A stretch of DNA of 64,000 nucleotides, taken from contig CAIVEI010000141.1 of the NCBI GenBank assembly GCA_903904835.1, forward strand, positions 21,472 through 85,471. Direction: 5' to 3'. Shown piece by piece: positions 27,863 to 62,675 of this stretch; position 1 is the stretch's first letter; each line of letters begins with the position of its first letter. Source of the stretch: an uncultured Schlesneria sp. (GTDB taxonomy: Bacteria > Planctomycetota > Planctomycetia > Planctomycetales > Planctomycetaceae). Below the pieces are notes generated by a model. That model was given only the letters and a program-made list of their open reading frames with translations, was not told the origin of the DNA and made no database searches. Position numbers and translations under genes: made by a program.

Positions 27863-29554
27863 TCAGTTCACGACTGCTGCTTGACGAGCCAGTTCAATGA
27901 CCATCATGTTGCTGCAGTCCTCAAGGCTGACGACTCCTTCGGCGACTTTGAGCAATGCATCCTTCTGGATAGTGCAAATTCCACGTTCTTGAATCAGCCG
28001 TCGTAATTCATTTTCTGGTTGTCCTTCGTTGATCGCCCTGATGATGTCGTCCTCTGATGTCACGACTTCAAACAAGCCAATACGATCGTAGTACCCTGTG
28101 CCACGACATCGCGGGCAACCAACGGGGTGGCGGATCTCTTTGGGAGGCTCAAGATCGTTCTCCCTAAAAATCGCTGCTTCCTGGTCCGTTGGAACTGCGG
28201 CAGTCGAGCATTCCGGGCAGAGACGCCGCAAAAGCCGCTGCGAGATGATTCCGGCGAGATTTCCCGCCAGCGACCGATTGTCGATGTGCAAATCTCGGAT
28301 CGCCGTGACGGTTGAGGCGACGTCGCGTGTATGAAGGCTGCTGAATACATATTTTCCGGAACTTGCGGCTCGCATCGCCGTTTCCGCAGCGTCCGCATCA
28401 CGAATTTCACCGATCAGAACAACATCGGGATCAAGGCGGAGCAACGTCCGCAGCCCGCTTGTCATGGTGATTCCATGTTTGGTATCAACGGAGATCTGGC
28501 GGAACGTCGGAATGTCATATTCGGCGGGATCTTCGATTGTAACGATGTGCCGCGTTCCATCATCCAATTGGTGAAGCATCGAATAAAGCGTCGTCGTTTT
28601 CCCAGAACCTGTCGGTCCCGTGACGAGAACGATTCCTTCGCCATGTCGCAGGATCTGTTCAATCCGGGTTTGTGCATTTGTGGAAAGGCCCAGTTGATCC
28701 ATTGATCGCATCAAACGATGACGCGACAGGACTCGTAGCGAAATCGCTTCGCCATCAACGACGGGGACTGCTGTAATTCGGATTTCGAAGTCATTTAATG
28801 CCTCGGGCAAGGCCAGTCGACCTTCTTTGGGATGGAACGGATCTGCGATGTCCAGGTTTCCCATCACCTTGAGCTGCATGAGAAGTGCTCGCCCCACTTC
28901 GTTGCTCAATCGACAGAAGTTCGACATCTTCCCGTCGACGCGAAACCTGACGGTGTATTCCTCGCCGGAGGGGTCGATGTGAATATCTGTTGCCCGAGCA
29001 GAAATGGCTCGCGAGATTAACGCCAATGCCGGGTTGTCATTGATTTCAACCGAGGTCAGCACGTCTGCCGGAATCGACGATACAGGAGGTTTGTCGATCA
29101 TTGTCCAGTTCTGCCAGATGGCCGCTGGTGCTTCACCGATCGATTCTTCTTTCTGGGCTTTCAACGTCAGGACCGGGCAGGGGGCTCGCCTCGTAACTTC
29201 TTCTGCGACGCTTCCCAGGATCAAGCGTTTCAACCCGGATCGGCCCGTTGTCCCCATGACGATCAAGTCAGCCTTTTCCTCGGCGGCCACGGATAAAATG
29301 GCGGAAACAGGGATCCCTTCGACGTACCGTTCTTCATAGCGAAGCGGCGGATTGCTTGCAGAAAAGGACTGAAGCAAGTTTGCCATCTCTTGATACGACG
29401 GATCCTGCTCGATCTTCGGGTCCGGAACCGAACCATTTTCCACGACGTGCATGATCACAAGCATTCCGTCAGCGCCGCGCGCCAATGCGCCAGCTTGCTT
29501 GAGGGCCGCAATACTGCAATTTGAATAGTCAGCAGGAACAAGAATCTTGAACAT
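27863..29554 (-). CDS. Fusion protein: N-terminal universal stress protein (UspA) domain + GspE/PilB-type secretion ATPase
   Basis: USP: MFKILVPADYSNCSIAALKQAGALA...IVMGTTGRSGLKRLILGSVAEEVTRRAPCPVLTL; ATPase: ATDIHIDP, GPTGSGKTTTLYSML, LRTLLRLDPDVVLIGEIRDADAAETAMRAASSGKYVFSSLHT, CPEC..CPRCRGTGYYDRIGLFE; one uninterrupted frame. Confidence 0.9.
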   Translation of the reverse strand: MFKILVPADYSNCSIAALKQAGALARGADGMLVIMHVVENGSVPDPKIEQDPSYQEMANLLQSFSASNPPLRYEERYVEGIPVSAILSVAAEEKADLIVMGTTGRSGLKRLILGSVAEEVTRRAPCPVLTLKAQKEESIGEAPAAIWQNWTMIDKPPVSSIPADVLTSVEINDNPALALISRAISARATDIHIDPSGEEYTVRFRVDGKMSNFCRLSNEVGRALLMQLKVMGNLDIADPFHPKEGRLALPEALNDFEIRITAVPVVDGEAISLRVLSRHRLMRSMDQLGLSTNAQTRIEQILRHGEGIVLVTGPTGSGKTTTLYSMLHQLDDGTRHIVTIEDPAEYDIPTFRQISVDTKHGITMTSGLRTLLRLDPDVVLIGEIRDADAAETAMRAASSGKYVFSSLHTRDVASTVTAIRDLHIDNRSLAGNLAGIISQRLLRRLCPECSTAAVPTDQEAAIFRENDLEPPKEIRHPVGCPRCRGTGYYDRIGLFEVVTSEDDIIRAINEGQPENELRRLIQERGICTIQKDALLKVAEGVVSLEDCSNMMVIELARQAAVVN

Positions 29555-29665: not shown

Positions 29666-30166
29666 TCAACTCCGGGCTGCTTCGCCTGCCACCGGATCAA
29701 TCAGGAACTGATGCCCTTTAGGATGGACTGTCAGGACGGGGCAGCTTGCCGTCCGCACCAGTTTTTCGGCGACTGAGCCGATCAAGAAACGGGCAAGTCC
29801 AGAATGACCATGCGTGCCAACCACGATCAGGTCGATCTCATGCTCTTTGGCATAGCTCAGGATCTCGTCAACCGCCAGTCCCATTACGGCATTGTGAATA
29901 ACAATGTGTTGTTGAGACCAGGTGGAGTCGATTTCATTTGCAAGTCGCCGGTCACAAGCCTCGACCTGTCGTTGCATCTCGTTTTCCGGCATGATCCAGG
30001 GGGACGCTGCGTCAGGGTAGGGAACGACCAGCGGGACGACATGCAGTAAATGCAGTTCAGCACCGAATCGATCCGCCAGCGACATGGCATACTGTTTCGC
30101 TTCGTTAGCCGGCTCGCTGAAGTCCGTTGGAAACAAAATTCGTCGAATCGAGATGATCACTGCCAT
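29666..30166 (-). CDS. Universal stress protein
   Basis: MAVIISIRRILFPTDFSEPANEAKQYA...IVVGTHGHSGLARFLIGSVAEKLVRTASCPVLTV. Confidence 0.9.
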   Translation of the reverse strand: MAVIISIRRILFPTDFSEPANEAKQYAMSLADRFGAELHLLHVVPLVVPYPDAASPWIMPENEMQRQVEACDRRLANEIDSTWSQQHIVIHNAVMGLAVDEILSYAKEHEIDLIVVGTHGHSGLARFLIGSVAEKLVRTASCPVLTVHPKGHQFLIDPVAGEAARS

Positions 30167-30239
30167 GTGCTCCTTGTTCGGTTTCACTTCCAACGGGACA
30201 TTTGGGGGGAGTCGAAGATTAAAAGTTTTTACAACGGTT

Positions 30240-30719
30240 TCAGGATTTCTGAACATCCAACGACAACGTTGGTGGTGACGGGCTTGAAGCGGGGTGTCGT
30301 AAAACTAACACGGGGCAATGTGTCTGCCTGAGAAGCCCCTCGGCAACGCTACCGTGCACCTGAAGATGGAACCGACTGTGATGGTGCGAGGCAATCACAA
30401 TTAAATCAGCGTTTTCCTCGTAAGCAACGTTCAGGATCGCACCGACTGAATAACCCCGAACGATGCGAAACGAAATTGGCATTTCGCCAGCTTCGGCTTT
30501 CATCCGGCAAAAGTGTTCGTGACATTCGCGAACAACTGGAAGCTTTTCGTCGATTGCGATGTCATCTGATTGACGATCAGGAAAGGCGTCCGGCGGCAGC
30601 ACATGTACAACGACCATTGAGGCGAACTGATCGCGAGCGACACTACACGCGAGTTGAAATGCCCGTTCCGAATCCTCAGAAAAATCTGTGGGATGCAGTA
30701 TGATATCGAATGTGCTCAT
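30240..30719 (-). CDS. Universal stress protein
   Basis: MSTFDIILHPTDFSEDSERAFQLA...IVIASHHHSRFHLQVHGSVAEGLLRQTHCPVLVL. Confidence 0.85.
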   Translation of the reverse strand: MSTFDIILHPTDFSEDSERAFQLACSVARDQFASMVVVHVLPPDAFPDRQSDDIAIDEKLPVVRECHEHFCRMKAEAGEMPISFRIVRGYSVGAILNVAYEENADLIVIASHHHSRFHLQVHGSVAEGLLRQTHCPVLVLRHPASSPSPPTLSLDVQKS

Positions 30720-30815
30720 GGCCCTGTCTCCACACGAAAAAAGCTCGCGCTAGGGGTTTCAACAGGCTCCGAATTGAGGCCATTTTCACGAGCAGGTTGA
30801 CATGAAGTTCGTTAC

Positions 30816-30830
30816 GCACAGCGTGTGCCA
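30816..30830 (-). promoter_or_regulatory. Sigma-54-like -24/-12 promoter upstream of the USP gene
   Basis: Minus strand TGGCACACGCTGTGC: GG-N10-GC spacing and TGGCACR half matches. Confidence 0.55.
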
Positions 30831-31073
30831 AGCTGGCAAGATTCGATCTGAGAAGCCTCGATCGTAAGAATTACCCGGCGGCACATTCCCGATCACCGGG
30901 GAATCGTGGCGCCGGGTGGCTGGGTTTTCTCCAGTTGGAAAGATTTCGACCACTTTTCAGCGACCTGTCTAAGACTTGGCACCGCGACTTAGACCGAGCC
31001 GCATTCTGTCAGGTTCGATGCGATTATGATTTTAGAAGTATCGCTTCACAGAAGTCCGCAATCTCAGACGATG

Positions 31074-32519
31074 TTATTCGTTCATACGGACCGAGCGATC
31101 GAGGTTAATTCCGAGCGCGGCGAGTTTCGTTCGAAGGGTTGAGCGAGAGATCCCCAAAAGGGCCGAGGCGCGACTGATATTTCCTTCGAATTCTTGCAAA
31201 AGTTCTAACAGCAGAATTCGCTCGACCCGCTGGATCACATCATCATAAAGGGTCTCTGTTCCTGCCTTGATTCGTTTGTGGATAAAACGAATGATCCCTT
31301 CATCCGTCAGAAGGTCGTTTTCTGAACCCACCATCGGTCCAGATTCGCTATTCGCGTCACGGACGGTCTCCGGCAGAAATTCAGGGACAACCACCGGGCC
31401 ATTGGCTTCAACGACAGCATGTTTAAGCACGCTCTGCAATTCGCGCAGGTTGCCTGGCCATGTGTAATTGGAAAGTAGCTTCATGGCCTCCGGTGAGACT
31501 TCGCGCACATTCTTGCCCGATTCCAGACTGAATCTTTTCAGAAAATGGCTGATCAAAAGAGGCAGGTCACCGTTTCGCTCGCGAAGGGGCGGAAGTCGAA
31601 TCGTGTAGACATTCAGACGGTAATACAGATCACTTCGAAAGCTTTCCTGCTCCATCATCTCGGTCAAATTACGGTTTGTAGCAGCGATCAGCCGAACGTT
31701 CGTGCGAACCATTTCGTTGCCGCCGACGCGTTCAAACTGTTGGTCCTGCAAGACTCGAAGGACTTTCGTTTGCGTCAGCGGCGTCATGTCGCCGATCTCA
31801 TCCAGGAACAACGTTCCACCGTCGCACTGCTCGAACTTGCCGATTCGTTTGCGTTCTGCGCCTGTGAACGAACCCTTCTCGTGACCAAAGAGTTCGCTTT
31901 CGAGCAGATTCTCAGGGATCGCAGCACAATTGATGGCGAGAAACGGCCGGTCAACTCGTTTGCTATATTGGTAAATCGCTCGGGCGACGACTTCTTTTCC
32001 GGTCCCGCTTTCACCGAGGATCAGGACGGTGACATCCTGTCCTGCAACCCGACCAATTTGACGATAAACTTCCTGCATGGCCGGACATTGGCCAACGAGC
32101 AGGTCGCCCTCGTCTGAATCGGTATTGTCGGCGATTTTTGCGGGAGTGCGGACCATACGTGAAGACTCCAACGCCCGATCAATCACGGACTGGAGAGCGT
32201 CGAGGTCCAGCGGCTTTAACAGGTACTCGAAAGCCCCTTTGCGCATTGCCTCGATCGCCGTGTTCGCCGTGCCATGACCGGTCATCAGAATGACTGGCAC
32301 TTTTCGGTCCAATTCCTGCAAATCTTGCAGCAATTTCAAGCCAGAGCAGTCGGGTAGCCTGACGTCAGTCACAACAACATCGAATGAACAAGCGCGAAAA
32401 AGCGAAACCGCCTCACCTGCCGTTTTCGCAGTTTCGACTTCGATTTGATCGGCTGGAAACGTGTAACGAAAACAATCCAGGATCAGAGTGTCATCATCCA
32501 CGACAAGCAGTTTCGGCAT
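31074..32519 (-). CDS. Sigma-54-dependent response regulator (NtrC family)
   Basis: REC MPKLLVVDDDTLILDCF; AAA+ GESGTGKEVVARAIYQYS, GAFTGA-type GSFTGAERKRIGKFEQCDGGTLFLDEI; C-terminal Fis-type HTH. Confidence 0.9.
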   Translation of the reverse strand: MPKLLVVDDDTLILDCFRYTFPADQIEVETAKTAGEAVSLFRACSFDVVVTDVRLPDCSGLKLLQDLQELDRKVPVILMTGHGTANTAIEAMRKGAFEYLLKPLDLDALQSVIDRALESSRMVRTPAKIADNTDSDEGDLLVGQCPAMQEVYRQIGRVAGQDVTVLILGESGTGKEVVARAIYQYSKRVDRPFLAINCAAIPENLLESELFGHEKGSFTGAERKRIGKFEQCDGGTLFLDEIGDMTPLTQTKVLRVLQDQQFERVGGNEMVRTNVRLIAATNRNLTEMMEQESFRSDLYYRLNVYTIRLPPLRERNGDLPLLISHFLKRFSLESGKNVREVSPEAMKLLSNYTWPGNLRELQSVLKHAVVEANGPVVVPEFLPETVRDANSESGPMVGSENDLLTDEGIIRFIHKRIKAGTETLYDDVIQRVERILLLELLQEFEGNISRASALLGISRSTLRTKLAALGINLDRSVRMNE

Positions 32520-32770: not shown

Positions 32771-35074
32771 CTAATGAGGATTGTTCGCCAAGGCCTTGGA
32801 AAGTGCGAGCAACAGTTGATGGTCGGAATAGGGCTTGGGCAAAAATGCTTTCGCTCCTCGTTGCAAGACCTCAACTTCACGGCGCGTTGTTCGCAGGCCA
32901 CTACACGCAATCACTTTGACCTGAGGCTGCAATATCAATAACCGGTCGAGTGTTTGCAATCCATCCATGCCAGGCATCATCATATCCAGCAGCACGGCCG
33001 AGATTTCGTCACGACGCTGCGAGAAAATTGCGATCGCCTCGTCGCCGTTACTTGCCGTAACAACCCGATATCCTGCCGTTTCCAATGCTGCTGAAGCCAT
33101 TTGAAGTATCGTGATTTCATCATCCACCAAGAGTACTAATCTTCCGTGGCCTGGCTCGGCGACAGTAATACTCGAGGTGTCGCTGTCCGATTTAGTAGAC
33201 TCAAAGGCCGGCAAGTATACCGAAAACTTCGATCCGCGACCGACCTCGCTGTAGACAAGGATGAATCCGCCGTGGCTTTTCACAATGCCTTGAGCGGTCG
33301 CCAGTCCCAATCCGGTTCCTTTGCCGATTTCCTTTGTGGTAAAGAACGGGTCAAAGATCCGGTCAAGAACTTCATGACTCATGCCAGCACCCGTATCCGT
33401 CACTGTCAACAATAAATACGAGCCCGGTTTCCCCTCGGGATGCACTTTTGCAGAGTTCCCGTTAAGTGTGATTGATTTGGCTTCAATCAATAATTTGCCA
33501 CCGTCCGGCATGGCGTCACGCGCGTTGATACACAGATTCATCAGAATTTGTAAAATCTCTGTGGAATCTCCGCTGACGGTTGGACAGTCGGCATCCACCG
33601 TCGATTCGATTTGGATGGACTTGGGAAGGGTATGCTCCATCAGGCCGTGTGTTTCATTGACGATTTGATCAATTCGAACGGGGCTTCGATCTCCACGAAT
33701 ACCACCAGCGAACGACAGCATTTTTTGGATCAGGCCTGCACCTCGTTGAGCACTGGCCACCATCGTGTTCAAAAGTCCCTGTCGGTTGCCGGGAGCACGG
33801 TCGGAAGACAACAATTTTGCTCCCATGAGAATCGGAGTCAGCACATTGTTGAGGTCATGCGCGATTCCTCCGGCCAAAGTACCGATACTTTCTAAACGCT
33901 GACTACGATTTAACAACAATTCCTGTTTTTTGCGGTTGGTGATATCGATATCAATGCAAAGGTAGCCTTTGATGTCGCCCGTTTCATTTTTTAACGCTGT
34001 CCGGCGGTGATCCACGATCACCGTCTTTCCGGCTCGCGTCGTCATTTTCAGTTCACCAGACCACGAGTCTGCAGCGGTCAAGCTTTCCTTCCATTGGGCC
34101 ACCTGTGATTCGTTTCCTTGATAAAACAAATCGGTTGCATTGCGACCAACGGCTTCGTCAGCCGTCCAGCCCAAAAGCCGCTGGGCACCTTGATTCCAAT
34201 AGGTGATACGACCCGATGGATCGACGACACTGACTGCGTCGGAGACCTGTTCGAGCATCTGAGATTGTTGCTCGATTTGCTGTCGGTACTTCGCAGATTC
34301 TGTCACGTCACGGAGAATGACTGTGTAGATTCTCTCGTCGTTAATTTTCGTATGTGATATCGACGCCTCAATCGGAAACTCTTCACCAGACTGTCGCAGG
34401 GCCATGACGGTCCGTTGTGCGCTCATGCGTCGGCTCGGAATCACGCCTCGTCCAAATTGTTCGACAAGCTGACGATGTTCTGACAGATAACGTTTCGGGA
34501 TTAATGTATCGATCGAACGACCGAGAATTTGATCGGCTTTCCACCCAAAAATTGCTTCCGCTGCGCGATTGAAAAGGACAATCGTCTGCTGCTCATTCAT
34601 GGAAATGATCCCGTCCATCGCGGTGTCGAGAATCATCCTGACTTGATTCTCGCTTCGTTCACGATCTTCGGCCGCTCGTTGACGATCAGAAACGTCACGA
34701 AGGACGACCAACACTGCGACACTGCCGTCAGCACGCGGAATTGGTATGGCCAGATGCTCTACAGGGATCAGAACTCCGTCCGATCGCAGCGCTGTTGTTT
34801 TGGCTAACGGCTCGTCTTGACGATTTTGGATGACTCTCCGATACCGTTCTTCGAGAAACGTCTTCTCTTCAGCGGGGGCGAAATCGTATGGCGATTGTCC
34901 AAGCAAATCACCGGGATGCGTTGCGCCGAAAAGCGTCTGGCATTGTTCATTGACCAGGACAACGCGGTCAAAATGATGAATAAAAATGGCGTCCGGGCAG
35001 ATTTCAATCAGATGTCGACAACTGACTTGAAGGTCAAGGAAGTTCCCGGAACTGTCACCAGTCGATTCGTTCAT
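32771..35074 (-). CDS. Multi-PAS hybrid histidine kinase with C-terminal receiver
   Basis: PAS repeats; GGIAHDLNNVLTPI; FFTTKEIGKGTGLGLATAQGIVKSHGG; VLLVDDEITILQMASAAL...LLDMMMPGMDG. Confidence 0.9.
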   Translation of the reverse strand: MNESTGDSSGNFLDLQVSCRHLIEICPDAIFIHHFDRVVLVNEQCQTLFGATHPGDLLGQSPYDFAPAEEKTFLEERYRRVIQNRQDEPLAKTTALRSDGVLIPVEHLAIPIPRADGSVAVLVVLRDVSDRQRAAEDRERSENQVRMILDTAMDGIISMNEQQTIVLFNRAAEAIFGWKADQILGRSIDTLIPKRYLSEHRQLVEQFGRGVIPSRRMSAQRTVMALRQSGEEFPIEASISHTKINDERIYTVILRDVTESAKYRQQIEQQSQMLEQVSDAVSVVDPSGRITYWNQGAQRLLGWTADEAVGRNATDLFYQGNESQVAQWKESLTAADSWSGELKMTTRAGKTVIVDHRRTALKNETGDIKGYLCIDIDITNRKKQELLLNRSQRLESIGTLAGGIAHDLNNVLTPILMGAKLLSSDRAPGNRQGLLNTMVASAQRGAGLIQKMLSFAGGIRGDRSPVRIDQIVNETHGLMEHTLPKSIQIESTVDADCPTVSGDSTEILQILMNLCINARDAMPDGGKLLIEAKSITLNGNSAKVHPEGKPGSYLLLTVTDTGAGMSHEVLDRIFDPFFTTKEIGKGTGLGLATAQGIVKSHGGFILVYSEVGRGSKFSVYLPAFESTKSDSDTSSITVAEPGHGRLVLLVDDEITILQMASAALETAGYRVVTASNGDEAIAIFSQRRDEISAVLLDMMMPGMDGLQTLDRLLILQPQVKVIACSGLRTTRREVEVLQRGAKAFLPKPYSDHQLLLALSKALANNPH

Positions 35075-35205
35075 CCGTCTACCACCTTAATTTTGACCAC
35101 CTGGTAAAAATTCGCCACCACCAGATGGTCCGAATGGGGAAGTTACCATCGCTGCTCGCCCGGAATAGTGCAACTCTCTGGCCGAATTATGAAATTCCTC
35201 CGTTG

Positions 35206-35221
35206 CGGCACACGTCATGCA
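35206..35221 (+). promoter_or_regulatory. Sigma-54-like -24/-12 promoter upstream of the plus-strand USP gene
   Basis: CGGCACACGTCATGCA: GG-N10-GC spacing, about 187 nt before the start. Confidence 0.5.
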
Positions 35222-35407
35222 AAGGCTTGACGAGCATTACGATCGATCCAATCTTCTGCCGAATTGCAATCAGACGCAAATAAAGATCTATGAACGAAAG
35301 CCGCTGAGCAAGTATTTGCGGAACGCTATTCTTGTTTTGAGTTGGCGAGCGAATTTGGACGGGAAAACAACGGAAAATCAGTCTCACTGTTCGAGAGAAG
35401 GGACATC

Positions 35408-35887
35408 GTGGATACATTGATTCAACGAATTCTTATTCCCACGGACTTCAGTCCGCCAGCTCGTCAGGCCGAGCATTACGCGGTGGCACTGGCTCAGAAG
35501 TTTGCGGCCGAACTTCATGTCTTGCACATAGTGGAAGATCCTGCGTTACCGGTCCACGGTTCACGGTATTCGTGGGCCGTTCCCGATGACATGCTGCCTC
35601 GTCTGCTTGAGAAAGCTGAACACGATCTGACATTGGCGGTCCCGACGGCGGATGTCAATTTGATTGGCCGGGAATTGGTAAGAAAAATTAAAGTCGGTCA
35701 TCCCGTTAACTCAATCATTGAATACGCGACAGAAAATCAGATCGACCTGATCGTGATCGGTACCCACGGTCGATCGGGTCTGTCTCATCTTCTTCTTGGC
35801 AGTTCCGCTGAAAAACTCGTTCGATTGGCAACTTGTCCCGTTCTGACAGTCCATCCCAGCGGTCATCAGTTCGTCGAGTCAGGTTGA
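35408..35887 (+). CDS. Universal stress protein
   Basis: VDTLIQRILIPTDFSPPARQAEHYAVALAQ...IVIGTHGRSGLSHLLLGSSAEKLVRLATCPVLTV. Confidence 0.9.
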   Translation: MDTLIQRILIPTDFSPPARQAEHYAVALAQKFAAELHVLHIVEDPALPVHGSRYSWAVPDDMLPRLLEKAEHDLTLAVPTADVNLIGRELVRKIKVGHPVNSIIEYATENQIDLIVIGTHGRSGLSHLLLGSSAEKLVRLATCPVLTVHPSGHQFVESG

Positions 35888-47146: not shown

Positions 47147-48421
47147 TCAATCAAGACGTAACCAGATTGACTTCAAATATTCAGACTCGGGGCAATTCGT
47201 GGATATCGGGTGGTCGGGGGCGGCACCACCTTTGGCGATGATCTGGCCTCGACGTCCCACTTCCGGTGCCGCGTTCACGATTTTAGTGAATTCGGCCATG
47301 TCGAGCAGTCCCGAACAACTGCATGTCAGTAATATTCCACCGGGATTCACCAGTTGCATCGCCAACCGGTTCATGTCGAAGTATTTATGCCGCCCCTCTT
47401 CGATTTCCATGCGGCTGCGGATCAATTTTGGCGGGTCCAGCACCACCACATCGAACTTCTTTTTATTACGTTGCATGTCCCGCATGTAACCGAACACTTC
47501 GGCCTGCACGAAATTGATTTTCAGTTGGTTGAGGTTCGCGTTTTCTCGAGCAAGTACAACAGTGTCTTCATCGAGTTCCACCCCGGTCACTTCGCTTGCC
47601 TGACCAATTCGTTTCGCCTGCAGCGAAAAACCGCCGGTATAGCAACAGAGGTCGAGGACCGTTTTCCCGGCACAAAAGTCGGCGAACCGCCTGCGGTTAT
47701 CCCGCTGGTCGCAATAAAAACCAGTCTTATGGCCACCAGCAAAGTTGATGCGGAACTTGGTGCCGTATTCCTGAACGATCGTCTTGGCAGGGACTTCCGC
47801 CGAACCGTAAGGATCGGCTGCAAAACCCTCATGTTCATGCGACATCGGTGCCGCCCGCAGAACTCCGTGTTTCGTTCCAGCCAAGACTTCGAGTTGACTG
47901 ATGATCGCTTCGGCTCGCTGATACATACCCAGCGAAAAGCACTCAGCCACCAGAACATCGCCAAACCGATCAACAACCAGTCCTGGAAGGCCATCCGCCT
48001 CGGCATGAATCAGTCGATAGGCCTGTGAAACATCGTCGAGTTTTAGAGTCTCTCGGCGCAACGAAACTGCTTGAGCCAGCCGGTCGCTCCACCACACTTC
48101 GTCCGGTGGTTTCAAGCCGGCACGAAGCACTCTGACGGCAATTTCGGCCTCAGGATTAAAAAGTCCAAACCCAACCGTTTCACCGCTGGGAGCATTCAAT
48201 TCGACCAGATCACCCGGCTGAGCATCACGGGAAATCTGGCCGAGCTGTTTGCGAAAGACGAAAGGATGCCAAAGTGCACCCCCCAGACGGACTTCGACTT
48301 GAGGGAGTCGTTCGCCTTCAGGAGGACACAATGGGCGTTGTTCAAGCAATTCGCGGCGGACCCGGACTGGCTGACGGGACGTTTCGTAACGTCGAGACGA
48401 TGATTGTGGTTTGCGGTTCAT
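47147..48421 (-). CDS. RlmI-like class I SAM-dependent 23S rRNA methyltransferase, copy 1
   Basis: VLDLCCYTGGFSLQAKR SAM motif; FDVVVLDPPKLIRSRMEIEEG; N-terminal PUA-like region. Confidence 0.9.
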   Translation of the reverse strand: MNRKPQSSSRRYETSRQPVRVRRELLEQRPLCPPEGERLPQVEVRLGGALWHPFVFRKQLGQISRDAQPGDLVELNAPSGETVGFGLFNPEAEIAVRVLRAGLKPPDEVWWSDRLAQAVSLRRETLKLDDVSQAYRLIHAEADGLPGLVVDRFGDVLVAECFSLGMYQRAEAIISQLEVLAGTKHGVLRAAPMSHEHEGFAADPYGSAEVPAKTIVQEYGTKFRINFAGGHKTGFYCDQRDNRRRFADFCAGKTVLDLCCYTGGFSLQAKRIGQASEVTGVELDEDTVVLARENANLNQLKINFVQAEVFGYMRDMQRNKKKFDVVVLDPPKLIRSRMEIEEGRHKYFDMNRLAMQLVNPGGILLTCSCSGLLDMAEFTKIVNAAPEVGRRGQIIAKGGAAPDHPISTNCPESEYLKSIWLRLD

Positions 48422-49407: not shown

Positions 49408-49869
49408 TTATTCCTTTAGCAGTTCTTCGGATGTGCAAATGACTGGTGGTTGGTAGCCGAAGCCTCGAATAACCTCATCAATATTGAAACGAAGTTCTGC
49501 ATTCGCGATGTGTGTGCAGTTCCAAGTCAGCAAGTACTGCATGCCGTTGACTGTTGCAATGGCGATGTGGAGCGAATCAGATGCGGCCTTGGGTGGCAAC
49601 GGTACACGCTTCATCAATTCAGCCGCGAGCGGTTGAACATCGTCACTTGGGTCGAGCAAAGGTATGTCCGCCAAAAAGTCCAACCGGCGTTTTGCCGCAT
49701 CGGGGTCACCCGCACTTGCCTCATCGATTACGAATTGCGATACGAACACGTCAAAGTCTTGCCGCCGCGATTCCCACCATTCACGAGTCATTTGTTGATG
49801 ACTTGCCATGACGAGATCTCGGCTAGCCCATGCGGTCAGGTAACTCGGAACCGTTGTCTCCAAATACAC
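49408..49869 (-). CDS. PIN-domain toxin-like protein (module 1)
   Basis: MYLETTVPSYLTAW...VSQFVIDEASAGDPDAAKRRL...SDSLHIAIATVNGMQYLLTWNCTHIANA. Confidence 0.8.
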   Translation of the reverse strand: MYLETTVPSYLTAWASRDLVMASHQQMTREWWESRRQDFDVFVSQFVIDEASAGDPDAAKRRLDFLADIPLLDPSDDVQPLAAELMKRVPLPPKAASDSLHIAIATVNGMQYLLTWNCTHIANAELRFNIDEVIRGFGYQPPVICTSEELLKE

Positions 49870-50338: not shown

Positions 50339-50565
50339 TAAGGGATTAATGGAGCCGTCGCGACAGAGCTTCCTTCAGATTGCGGCCGACCGTCGGATTC
50401 GGTGGAATCCTTTGATCGTTGCTTGCCCTGCCAAATCGGTCTACCAGATTTTTCCAATCTGGATTGCGCATCACTGAGATAAGCGAGTGTATCGCCGTTC
50501 CAATCCGCTAGGATTTTGCGTCTTGCAGCATGAAGTTCGTCCAATACCGGGTTTTGTGTGCTCAT
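50338..50565 (-). CDS. Putative antitoxin partner of PIN protein (module 2)
   Basis: MSTQNPVLDELHAARRKILADWNGDTLAYLSDAQSRLEKSGRPI; overlaps the PIN ORF end by 4 nt. Confidence 0.55.
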   Translation of the reverse strand: MSTQNPVLDELHAARRKILADWNGDTLAYLSDAQSRLEKSGRPIWQGKQRSKDSTESDGRPQSEGSSVATAPLIP

Positions 50566-51035
50566 ATTCCAACGAAAAATTCTATGGGTGCACAAACCAA
50601 CATCCCGGAAAGTCCAAGTTCTTGAAGCAGTTTGTAAATGCGAGGCAACTCAGTTGCGTTGGCGATGTGCGTACAATTCTGCGTCAGCAAGTATTGTACT
50701 CCGGCGAGTGCAGCCGTGGCAACATGTAATGCATCCAACCTCGCGCTTGGTGGCATCATGTGCCGCCGAATGATTTCATCGGCGACTGAATCGACATCTG
50801 GATTGGCGGGTAAAACAGGTATCCTGTCCAACGCTGCCAGTCTTCGTCTGGCCGCATCAGGATCGCCAAGCGACGCTTCGTCAATCACAAGTTGAGAGGT
50901 AACCACCTCATAATGTGGCCTTTGCTCCGTAAGCCAACGTTTCGCCTGCTGTTGCAAAGCGAGTGTTGTCGGGTCGCTGCTCGGTCTTGCCGTTGCATGG
51001 CTGATCACAGATGTTTCGATGTAGTCGAGATCCAT
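50562..51035 (-). CDS. PIN-domain toxin-like protein (module 2)
   Basis: MDLDYIETSVISHATARPSSD...TSQLVIDEASLGDPDAARRRLAALDRIPVL...LDALHVATAALAGVQYLLTQNCTHIANA. Confidence 0.75.
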   Translation of the reverse strand: MDLDYIETSVISHATARPSSDPTTLALQQQAKRWLTEQRPHYEVVTSQLVIDEASLGDPDAARRRLAALDRIPVLPANPDVDSVADEIIRRHMMPPSARLDALHVATAALAGVQYLLTQNCTHIANATELPRIYKLLQELGLSGMLVCAPIEFFVGI

Positions 51036-51326
51036 GTTAGCATTCTTTGGCAACGAACGCTGGCCATCACCCTGCACGCGCGAGAGACGCCACCATTTTG
51101 AAACGCCCGATCGCATGCTCGGGTGCATGGCTTGATTCTGACATTTTAACGGCTTGGTTCATGAATTGTCGCGTCTCGGGGGACACCGCTTTTTTGCCAA
51201 AAGGCTATGTACCTATTGGTGGTGAGCTGATCCGAATGACGCGATTTCTGTTGGGGCAATTGATCGCCTTGAGAATGATGCTTTTCCCTGTAGAATCGAA
51301 TCGAGATTACTAGAACGCTACGAGGG

Positions 51327-55068: not shown

Positions 55069-55260
55069 TCAAGGCACGCGTTCAATTTGGGGAACCTTGC
55101 GTCGTGGCTTTGGCTCGCGGGACGCAGATTGTCGGTCAGATTCGCTGTGCCGCTTGCGCAAATCATTCATCATCAAGCGGACATCGCCGTTGAATTGTTG
55201 AGCGTATGCTTCACGAACACGCCGAACTTCTGAAAGAATTGGGTCAAGAGTCATAGTCAT
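55069..55260 (-). CDS. Putative antitoxin partner of PIN protein (module 3)
   Basis: MTMTLDPILSEVRRVREAYAQQFNGDVRLMMNDLRKRHSESDRQ; overlaps the PIN ORF end. Confidence 0.6.
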   Translation of the reverse strand: MTMTLDPILSEVRRVREAYAQQFNGDVRLMMNDLRKRHSESDRQSASREPKPRRKVPQIERVP

Positions 55261-55729
55261 CCCCCATGAGTTGATCAGGAGTGCAGATCACAGGCATCGA
55301 AAAACCGAAATCGTCGCATACATCATAAATGATCGGTTGGAATGTTGCATTGGCAATGTGCGTGCAATTCCACGTGAGCAAATAGTCGATGCCGTGAACG
55401 ATGCAGATGGCAATATGAGCCGCATCCATCAATGCACGTGCCGGAAGAGACAGACGATCAATTAGGGTGATCACGATTTCATCAGCGTCGGATAACGGGT
55501 CGAGCACAGGGATTCCGTCGAGAACTTCAAGCCGCCGTTTTGCCGCATGAGGATCGCCTCCGGAAGCTTCGAGTAGGACGGCATCCGAGATGAATAGGTC
55601 AAAGTGTTGACGCCGATCATCCCACCATTGCCGTGTCGTTTGCTGTTTGGCCGCCATCGAGAGTTCAGGACTACGCCAAGCAGTCAGATAGCTGGGAATC
55701 GTTGTTTCGAGGTAGACAGATGACGCCAT
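55244..55729 (-). CDS. PIN-domain toxin-like protein (module 3)
   Basis: VYLETTIPSYLTAWRSPELSMAAKQQTTRQWWDDRRQHFDLF...MDAAHIAICIVHGIDYLLTWNCTHIANA. Confidence 0.8.
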   Translation of the reverse strand: MASSVYLETTIPSYLTAWRSPELSMAAKQQTTRQWWDDRRQHFDLFISDAVLLEASGGDPHAAKRRLEVLDGIPVLDPLSDADEIVITLIDRLSLPARALMDAAHIAICIVHGIDYLLTWNCTHIANATFQPIIYDVCDDFGFSMPVICTPDQLMGDDYDS

Positions 55730-57236: not shown

Positions 57237-58511
57237 TCAATCAAGTCGTAACCAGATCGACTTCAAATATTCAGACTCGGGGCAATTCGTGGAAATTGGG
57301 TGGTCGGGAGCGGCCCCACCCTTCGCGATGATTTGACCTCGACGTCCTACTTCCGGTGCCGCATTCACGATCTTGGTGAATTCAGTCATGTCGAGCAGTC
57401 CCGAGCAACTGCATGTCAGCAATATTCCACCAGGATTCACCAGTTGCATCGCCAGCCGATTCAGGTCGAAGTACTTATGCCGCCCCTCTTCGATTTCCAT
57501 GCGGCTGCGAATCAGTTTCGGTGGGTCCAGGACGACCACATCGAACTTCTTCTTGTTACGTTGCATGTCCCGCATGTAACCGAACACTTCAGCCTGCACG
57601 AAATTGATTTTCAGTTGATTGAGGTTCGCGTTTTCTCGAGCGAGTACAACGGTGTCTTCGTCCAGCTCGACCCCGGTCACTTCGCTGGCCTGACCAATTC
57701 GTTTGGCTTGCAGGGAAAAGCCACCGGTGTAACAGCAGAGATCCAGTACCGATTTCCCGCCACAAAAGTCGGCTAACCGTCTGCGGTTATCCCGCTGGTC
57801 GCAATAAAAGCCGGTCTTATGACCGCCCGCAAAGTTAATACGGAACTTGGTGTCATGCTCCTGAACAATCGTCTTGGCGGGGACTTCCGCAGAACCGTAA
57901 GGATCAGCGGCAAACCCTTCGTGTTCATGCGACATCGGTGCCGCCCGCAGAACTCCGTGTTTCGTTCCTGCCAGGACTTCAAGTTGACTGATAATCGCTT
58001 CGGCTCGTTGATACATGCCAAGCGAAAAACACTCAGCGACCAACACGTCGCCAAATCGATCGACAACGAGACCAGGCAGGCCATCAGCCTCGGCATGAAT
58101 CAGTCGATAAGCCTGCGATACGTCGTCCAGCTTCAACGTCTCGCGCCGCAGTGAAACCGCTTGAGCCAGCCGGTCGCTCCACCATGCTTCATCCGGTGGT
58201 TTTAAGCCGGCACGAAGCACTCTTACGGCAATTTCGGCCTCAGGATTGAATAATCCAAAACCAACCGTTTCACCGCTGGGAGCGTTCAGTTCGACCAGAT
58301 CACCCGGTTGAGCTTCTCGGGAAATCTGGCCAAGTTGTTTTCGAAAGACGAATGGATGCCACAATGCACCACCGAGGCGGACTTCGACTTGAGGGAGTCG
58401 TTCGCCTTCAGGCGGGCACAACGGGCGTTGTTCAAGTAATTCCCGGCAGACACGTACGGGCTGACGGGACGTTTCATAACGCCGAGACGATGATTGTGGT
58501 TTTCGGTTCAT
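57237..58511 (-). CDS. RlmI-like rRNA methyltransferase, copy 2 (inside the attC array)
   Basis: 424-aa protein almost identical to the 47147-48421 product; nucleotide differences mostly synonymous. Confidence 0.9.
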   Translation of the reverse strand: MNRKPQSSSRRYETSRQPVRVCRELLEQRPLCPPEGERLPQVEVRLGGALWHPFVFRKQLGQISREAQPGDLVELNAPSGETVGFGLFNPEAEIAVRVLRAGLKPPDEAWWSDRLAQAVSLRRETLKLDDVSQAYRLIHAEADGLPGLVVDRFGDVLVAECFSLGMYQRAEAIISQLEVLAGTKHGVLRAAPMSHEHEGFAADPYGSAEVPAKTIVQEHDTKFRINFAGGHKTGFYCDQRDNRRRLADFCGGKSVLDLCCYTGGFSLQAKRIGQASEVTGVELDEDTVVLARENANLNQLKINFVQAEVFGYMRDMQRNKKKFDVVVLDPPKLIRSRMEIEEGRHKYFDLNRLAMQLVNPGGILLTCSCSGLLDMTEFTKIVNAAPEVGRRGQIIAKGGAAPDHPISTNCPESEYLKSIWLRLD

Positions 58512-61968: not shown

Positions 61969-62108
61969 GAATTTGGTTTCCACATTGGCCGTCCAGAAGC
62001 TTCTTGCCGTTTTCTTGCATCGTCGAGCATTGCCGCGAAATCGCCGTGAAACTTATTTGAAATTTCACGACGTGTTTGATGAATTTCGTCAATGATCGGA
62101 TCAATCAT
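61920..62108 (-). CDS. Putative antitoxin partner of PIN protein (module 4)
   Basis: MIDPIIDEIHQTRREISNKFHGDFAAMLDDARKRQEASGRPM; C-terminal tail and stop encoded by the attC site. Confidence 0.6.
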   Translation of the reverse strand: MIDPIIDEIHQTRREISNKFHGDFAAMLDDARKRQEASGRPMWKPNSPNKPVQRNGVPSADL

Positions 62109-62589
62109 CAGTTGCTGGATCATCAGCCAACATCTCCTCGCGGGTGCAAATAATGGGAATAGGAATAAAAAGGTCCGTCAGGAACTCGCGAATTCGGGGT
62201 AGTATCTTTGCATTTGCAATCTGACGACAATTCCACGTCAGCAAATATTGTATTCGATGATGGGCCACGATAGCAATATGCAGTGCATCCGTGCGAGCTT
62301 TCGGAGGAAGAATTGCACGTGCCATGATTTCGTCGGCGATCAGCGCAATATCAGGGTCAAGCGGCAACAGAGGAATTCCGTCCAACGATTGAAGGCGTTC
62401 CGCTGCCAGAGTTGCATCTCCCGCCGAGGCTTCGTCAATGACATATTGCGAGATGACCAGATCGTAATTGGCTCGTTCGTAATTCCACCATTGATGCGTG
62501 AGCAATTGACGAGCTGCCATCACAACCTGCGAACTGGCCCGCTGACGAAGATAACTAACGATTGAAGTTTCGATGTAGACCGTATCCAT
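62101..62589 (-). CDS. PIN-domain toxin-like protein (module 4)
   Basis: MDTVYIETSIVSYLRQRASSQVVMAARQLLTHQWWNYERANYDLVISQYVIDEASAGDATLAAERLQSLDGIPLL...DALHIAIVAHHRIQYLLTWNCRQIANA. Confidence 0.8.
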   Translation of the reverse strand: MDTVYIETSIVSYLRQRASSQVVMAARQLLTHQWWNYERANYDLVISQYVIDEASAGDATLAAERLQSLDGIPLLPLDPDIALIADEIMARAILPPKARTDALHIAIVAHHRIQYLLTWNCRQIANAKILPRIREFLTDLFIPIPIICTREEMLADDPATDD

Positions 62590-62675
62590 AGAACACCGAA
62601 TGATAATCCTGTTACGGACCCAGCAGTTTAAACTCAATCGCTGTTTGAAATCCGCCTCTCAATTGTACATCGGGA

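Follow-up and report, generated by a model that had tools for sequence, protein, structure and literature searches.

The 64,000 nucleotides analysed here (the window, meaning the whole stretch) come from an uncultured Schlesneria sp. and encode a protein of 563 amino acids in which a universal stress protein (USP) domain with an ATP-type signature is joined, in a single open frame, to the core of a GspE-type secretion ATPase. The architecture is undescribed in searchable papers and is a new variant of both GspE-type ATPases and USPs. The best reading of the protein, which we put forward tentatively and at just under an even chance, is that of a stress-induced, USP-regulated GspE-type ATPase that would act as a motor in trans. 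The features on which the analysis is based are collected in Table 1.

Table 1. Features of the fusion gene and of the DNA around it (positions are those of the window)
Feature	Position	Strand	Evidence or remark
USP-GspE fusion gene, 563 aa	27863..29554	minus	open frame, Pfam, orthologues
USP domain, residues 1-135	29150..29554	minus	PF00582, 103 bits; dN/dS
MJ0577-type ATP motif G-x2-G-x9-G-S	about 29210-29254	minus	
Variable linker, residues 136-177	29024..29149	minus	dN/dS 0.10-0.61, aligns poorly
GspE-type ATPase core, residues 178-546	27917..29023	minus	PF00437, 326 bits
Stand-alone USP_a	29666..30256	minus	upstream, same direction as fusion; orthologues at equal position
Stand-alone USP_b	30240..30719	minus	first gene of probable operon
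Sigma-54 promoter-like site TTGGCAC-N6-TGC (TTGGCACACGCTGTGC)	30815..30831	minus	conserved in 4 genomes
Palindrome TTTCCA-NN-TGGAGAAA, candidate activator site	30926..30941	minus	conserved in 4 genomes
NtrC-type response regulator (receiver, sigma-54 AAA+, HTH_8)	31074..32519	minus	orthologues found
Triple-PAS histidine kinase with receiver domain	32771..35074	minus	
Similar palindrome before USP_c	35093-35110		beside weaker sigma-54-like site
Second, weaker sigma-54-like site CGGCACACGTCATGC before USP_c	35206..35220	plus	conserved in 4 genomes
Stand-alone USP_c	35342..35887	plus	

Domains and motifs of the fusion protein

The frame runs on the minus strand from an ATG at 29554 to a stop at 27863, with a TGGAG-type ribosome site 8 nt on the 5′ side of the ATG. 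The preliminary description had the fusion and its coordinates right and left the strand unstated. Pfam recognizes Usp at residues 3-131 (E 2.5e-29, 103.1 bits, curated cut-off 24) and T2SSE at residues 178-546 (E 2.1e-97, 326.5 bits, curated cut-off 24.9). There is no Pfam match to MshEN, T2SSE_N or N1E in the protein, the N-terminus of which is occupied by the USP domain, and this agrees with the earlier statement that the usual N-terminal MshEN domain is missing. Among solved structures the ATPase part is closest to PilF, GspE and PilB, and the USP part to universal stress proteins, of which several bind ATP. A structure prediction of the monomer from seven sequences was poor (pLDDT 52), too low for any domain arrangement to be read from it.

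The signature for ATP binding that had been noticed in the USP domain is intact (G101-x2-G104-x9-G114-S115). The ATPase core comprises the N2 subdomain, Walker A (GPTGSGKTT, res. 313-320), the Asp box (IEDP, res. 340-343), Walker B with the GEIRD element (DPDVVLIGEIRD, res. 375-386), the His box (LHTRD, res. 407-411) and a CxxC...CxxC zinc motif. In a 15-row alignment (A1) the Walker A, Asp box, Walker B and His box positions are mostly invariant, and the zinc cysteines C446, C449, C480 and C483 are invariant. Thus the Walker A, Asp box and CxxC motifs that were described before are all present.

Distribution and selection

Orthologues of the fusion were found in 17 of 170 genomes of the family, all matching the protein query better than 1e-88; they are spread over 5 of its 58 genera, and within the genus 9 of 15 genomes have one. 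A profile built from A1 gives these 17 orthologues 658-943 bits, and the next T2SSE protein 374. Among 392 genomes sampled across the phylum only the window's own contains the fusion, with 0 of 364 outside the family, and the architecture is absent among the best matches listed from 72,556 plasmid records. A scan of the genome contigs with exact peptide patterns found three loci. The near relatives with the fusion that carry a name are uncultured Schlesneria MAGs, and a literature search found no paper describing a USP+T2SSE architecture. Across the genomes sampled within the phylum the fusion is restricted to the family, which speaks against the possibility, named in the preliminary description, that the architecture is widespread and already characterized.

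The USP domain is whole or nearly whole in 14 of the 17 orthologues, that is, in the window's own protein and in 13 other full-frame proteins with 42-93% identity to it. Because both domains recur in one frame in 13 other genomes, the single frame is more than a chance event. The remaining orthologues differ in kind: in G502 the second half of the USP domain is present up to a contig end, in G503 a contig end cuts the orthologue at the linker, and in G014, known from one assembly (L053:8014-9267), the ATPase directly follows the first USP residues MVNILVPT. This looks like an in-frame loss of the USP domain in G014; stand-alone USPs are still encoded upstream of its USP-less orthologue. In G487 the USP-like domain has no ATP motif and the linker is longer. 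Since G014 is without the USP domain and G487 without its ATP motif, binding of ATP by this domain would not always be needed.

Between relatives, dN/dS amounts to 0.07-0.14 for the USP domain, 0.06-0.07 for the ATPase domain and 0.10-0.61 for the linker. The low ratios in both domains indicate that both are kept as protein, the linker mainly as a spacer. An internal start is not conserved, Met155 being Thr in close relatives. Translation as two separate proteins, named in the preliminary description as a finding that would speak against a fusion, is therefore unlikely, with both parts under purifying selection, no conserved internal start and the frame kept.

Gene neighborhood and promoter-like sites

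As noted before, three stand-alone USP genes are close by, two of them upstream on the same strand and the third on the other strand. The two on the same strand probably make up an operon with the fusion, which is its third gene. Four genomes share the order PAS-kinase, NtrC-type regulator, USP_b, USP_a, fusion, and in all of them a convergent S1/P1 nuclease gene follows behind the fusion. In G007 and G006 a regulator orthologue is found next to a USP_b-USP_a pair that has no fusion gene with it, which makes the fusion an optional part of the module. USP genes are also close to the fusion at most of its other loci; in G008 and G044 these loci further encode a CoA-ligase/ATP-grasp protein together with a P-type cation ATPase. 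Mycobacterial DosR regulons also combine USPs with a P-type ATPase, a parallel that serves as a lead only. Elsewhere in the window there are two paralogous genes for PUA/SAM methyltransferases of 424 amino acids (47147-48421 and 57237-58511), surrounded by PIN-domain genes (49408-49869, 50562-51128, 55244-55729 and 62101-62637).

The 354-nt gap on the 5′ side of USP_b contains CTTGGCAC(A/G)CGCTGTGCGT in all four of four genomes, and the sole varying base is inside the spacer. The palindrome, located some 110 bp upstream of this sigma-54-like site, shows one change in G001. The −12 box is imperfect, as the site is without the first T of TTGC, and the NtrC-type regulator has GSFTGA, not GAFTGA. 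No sigma-70 promoters were found between 27700 and 31200. The pattern TGGCAC-N6-TGC has 20 matches in 386 kb of DNA of the genus, 12 of them at most 400 bp upstream of a USP gene, a region that makes up 2.4% of the strand-bases; the pattern was picked after the first site had been seen, so that a nominal p value overstates the case. With the four seed orthologues removed, 8 of 16 matches are upstream of USP genes, and the choice of the motif did not involve the USP paralogues of G006, G008 and G000.

From these sequence features the probable fusion operon is apparently under sigma-54 control. The stress-gene setting proposed earlier holds, with the conserved promoter-like site and the adjoining regulator as extra support. 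A survey of Planctomycetia, in the passage that deals with COG0589 genes, predicts sigma-54 promoters for this group, an entry called 'T2SS protein E' included (PMC12316311). That entry presumably carries the annotation that a USP-T2SSE fusion of this type would receive.

Platform genes and ancestry of the two domains

Neither the window nor the other examined fusion loci yielded a T2SSF homolog or a prepilin-like start, in searches for which loci C58, C133 and C190 of the same genome served as controls and scored for T2SSF. The earlier remark that the gene lies far from any pilin or secretin thus holds, as regards prepilin-like starts and T2SSF, for the window and likewise for the other examined loci. 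A hidden T2SS/T4P cluster near the gene is rejected, both the T2SSF model and the prepilin pattern having come up empty at the fusion loci while detecting the controls. Elsewhere in the same genome there are 12 matches to T2SSF, others to secretins, and a PilB/PilT/PilC-like cluster that includes prepilins. A platform on which the ATPase could act in trans therefore exists; nothing ties the fusion ATPase to it.

Other T2SSE genes of this genome are also found in unusual company. STAS genes are directly upstream of short T2SSE genes on C101 (L066:7051-8640) and C174 (L068:6891-8556), and on C174 a receiver/HATPase_c_2 protein precedes the pair. On C182 (L074:838-3405) one frame of 855 amino acids contains an FHA domain, a hydrophobic stretch and a T2SSE core. 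On C50 (L069:6680-9350) a T2SSE ATPase with a long N-terminal part adjoins a Colicin V/CvpA-type membrane protein.

The fusion ATPases form one clade (100/99) in a tree built from 77 T2SSE domains; this clade groups (100/99) with the non-fused ATPases L085, L065 and L089 of other Planctomycetota. Proteobacterial GspE comes next, less surely; support for the sister position is low (90/45), and the tree includes some long rows. The three non-fused proteins are orphan ATPases, and only L065 has a USP gene alongside. This locus, from a Phycisphaerae MAG (L065:3-3112), is composed of a CBS gene, a short GspE-type ATPase, an overlapping tandem USP and an ATP-cone gene, an unfused pairing of the two domain types. 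The tree does not unite the USP domains of Schlesneria-type fusions and those of the other genera in a single clade, and forcing them into one is rejected with an AU p of about 0.02, obtained from some 165 columns of a fast domain. The USP domains of the two groups may thus be of separate origin, a result that is suggestive only.

Proposed function and alternatives

We propose that the protein is a GspE-type, presumably hexameric ATPase in which a USP domain of the ATP-binding type would replace the N1E/MshEN docking or c-di-GMP domain. Stress would act through the PAS kinase and the neighboring NtrC-type regulator to turn on the sigma-54 promoter, and the fusion would be made as the last gene of its operon. 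On the assembled ring the USP domains could form a regulatory crown that reads the state of the adenylates or brings in the USPs produced alongside; this crown may switch or retarget the ATPase. The ATPase would then act in trans on a T2SSF/PilC-type membrane platform encoded elsewhere, like the N1E-less PilT-type ATPases. The domains and their motifs, the selection on them, the single ATPase clade, the gene order, the promoter-like site with its palindrome and the platforms of the same genome argue for this explanation. Against it stand the lack of a platform or prepilin gene near the examined loci, the absence of the N1E/MshEN docking domain of true GspE, the imperfect −12 box, the GSFTGA of the regulator, the poor structure model, and the two relatives G014 and G487, which are without the USP domain and its ATP motif, respectively.

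Some of the same observations fit a repurposed signaling or energy-sensing ATPase that powers no filament, the ring serving the USP stress response as a switch or scaffold that depends on nucleotide. We consider this quite possible, at somewhat below an even chance. Apart from the missing platform genes near every examined copy and the missing N1E/MshEN, it draws on the Phycisphaerae orphan ATPase in its CBS/ATPase/tandem USP/ATP-cone cluster and on the precedent of Myxococcus PilB, which signals independently of pilus assembly (PMC5544727). The two STAS-T2SSE neighbors and the FHA-T2SSE fusion in the same genome make it a serious reading, although the STAS and FHA associations are seen in one genome only. 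Purifying selection, however, maintains the whole catalytic and zinc motif set, as it does in true motors, and platforms of the same genome could be used in trans. Of action on a platform in trans and filament work abandoned, we find the former slightly more likely. Either option of the preliminary description, a stress-gated motor or a repurposed hexameric ATPase, may apply. A wider claim, that GspE-type ATPases of Planctomycetota were recruited as signaling or energy-sensing rings through fusion to, or gene pairing with, USP, STAS and FHA domains and lost the drive of pili or secretion, with the fusion as the clearest conserved example, is conceivable and rather doubtful.

A neutral accident, in which an orphan ATPase gene became joined by chance to a USP gene and the two parts stay uncoupled while the ATPase works as before, appears improbable. 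The fusion is indeed rare and family-restricted, its linker is poorly conserved and G014 seems to retain the ATPase after dropping the USP domain, but the USP domain has a dN/dS of about 0.1 in the measured pairs, the fusion is retained in five genera, and the possible separate origin of the USP domains, if only suggestive, points the same way. For an artefact (a frameshift, a false join in the assembly or separate translation of two proteins) it can be said that many of the genomes are fragmented assemblies. It is very improbable and is rejected, since the same open frame is conserved in 14 genomes, with no conserved internal start and with selection on both domains.

The fusion matters for USPs in general, which are abundant and the mode of action of which is mostly obscure. 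Here a USP domain with an ATP motif is covalently linked to a well-understood motor ATPase, and its effect on the partner could be assayed directly as a change in ATPase activity. The G014 orthologue without the USP domain and the G487 protein without the ATP motif offer natural comparisons. If the proposal is true, N-terminal nucleotide control of secretion-type ATPases extends from c-di-GMP (MshEN) to adenylates.

Comparison with known systems

The fusion protein shares with GspE the T2SSE core, Walker A and B, the Asp and His boxes and the CxxC zinc motif. Its best NCBIfam score is that for GspE, and its clade branches near proteobacterial GspE. Unlike GspE, it scores 362.9 bits against a TIGR02533 equivalog cut-off of 630.25, has a USP domain instead of N1E/MshEN and has no gsp genes nearby. 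With PilB and MshE it has in common the core and, ahead of it, an N-terminal domain that senses nucleotides, putatively so in the fusion. In MshE-type proteins the MshEN domain senses c-di-GMP (PMC5013675). In the fusion this place is taken by the ATP-motif USP domain, and the score is 336 bits against a PilB cut-off of 676.

The retraction ATPases PilT and PilU function without N1E/MshEN, which is also missing in the fusion. Whereas this is a point of likeness, the fusion reaches only 145.8 bits against the TIGR01420 cut-off of 319.1 and retains the zinc motif and C-terminal parts of GspE/PilB. Similar to the MJ0577-type ATP-binding USPs, it possesses a USP domain with G-x2-G-x9-G-S, in this case fused to a secretion-type ATPase. 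The sigma-54/NtrC stress regulons of Planctomycetia resemble the present locus in having USP genes and a 'T2SS protein E' under COG0589 with predicted sigma-54 dependence (PMC12316311); the survey passage in question mentions no fusion protein.
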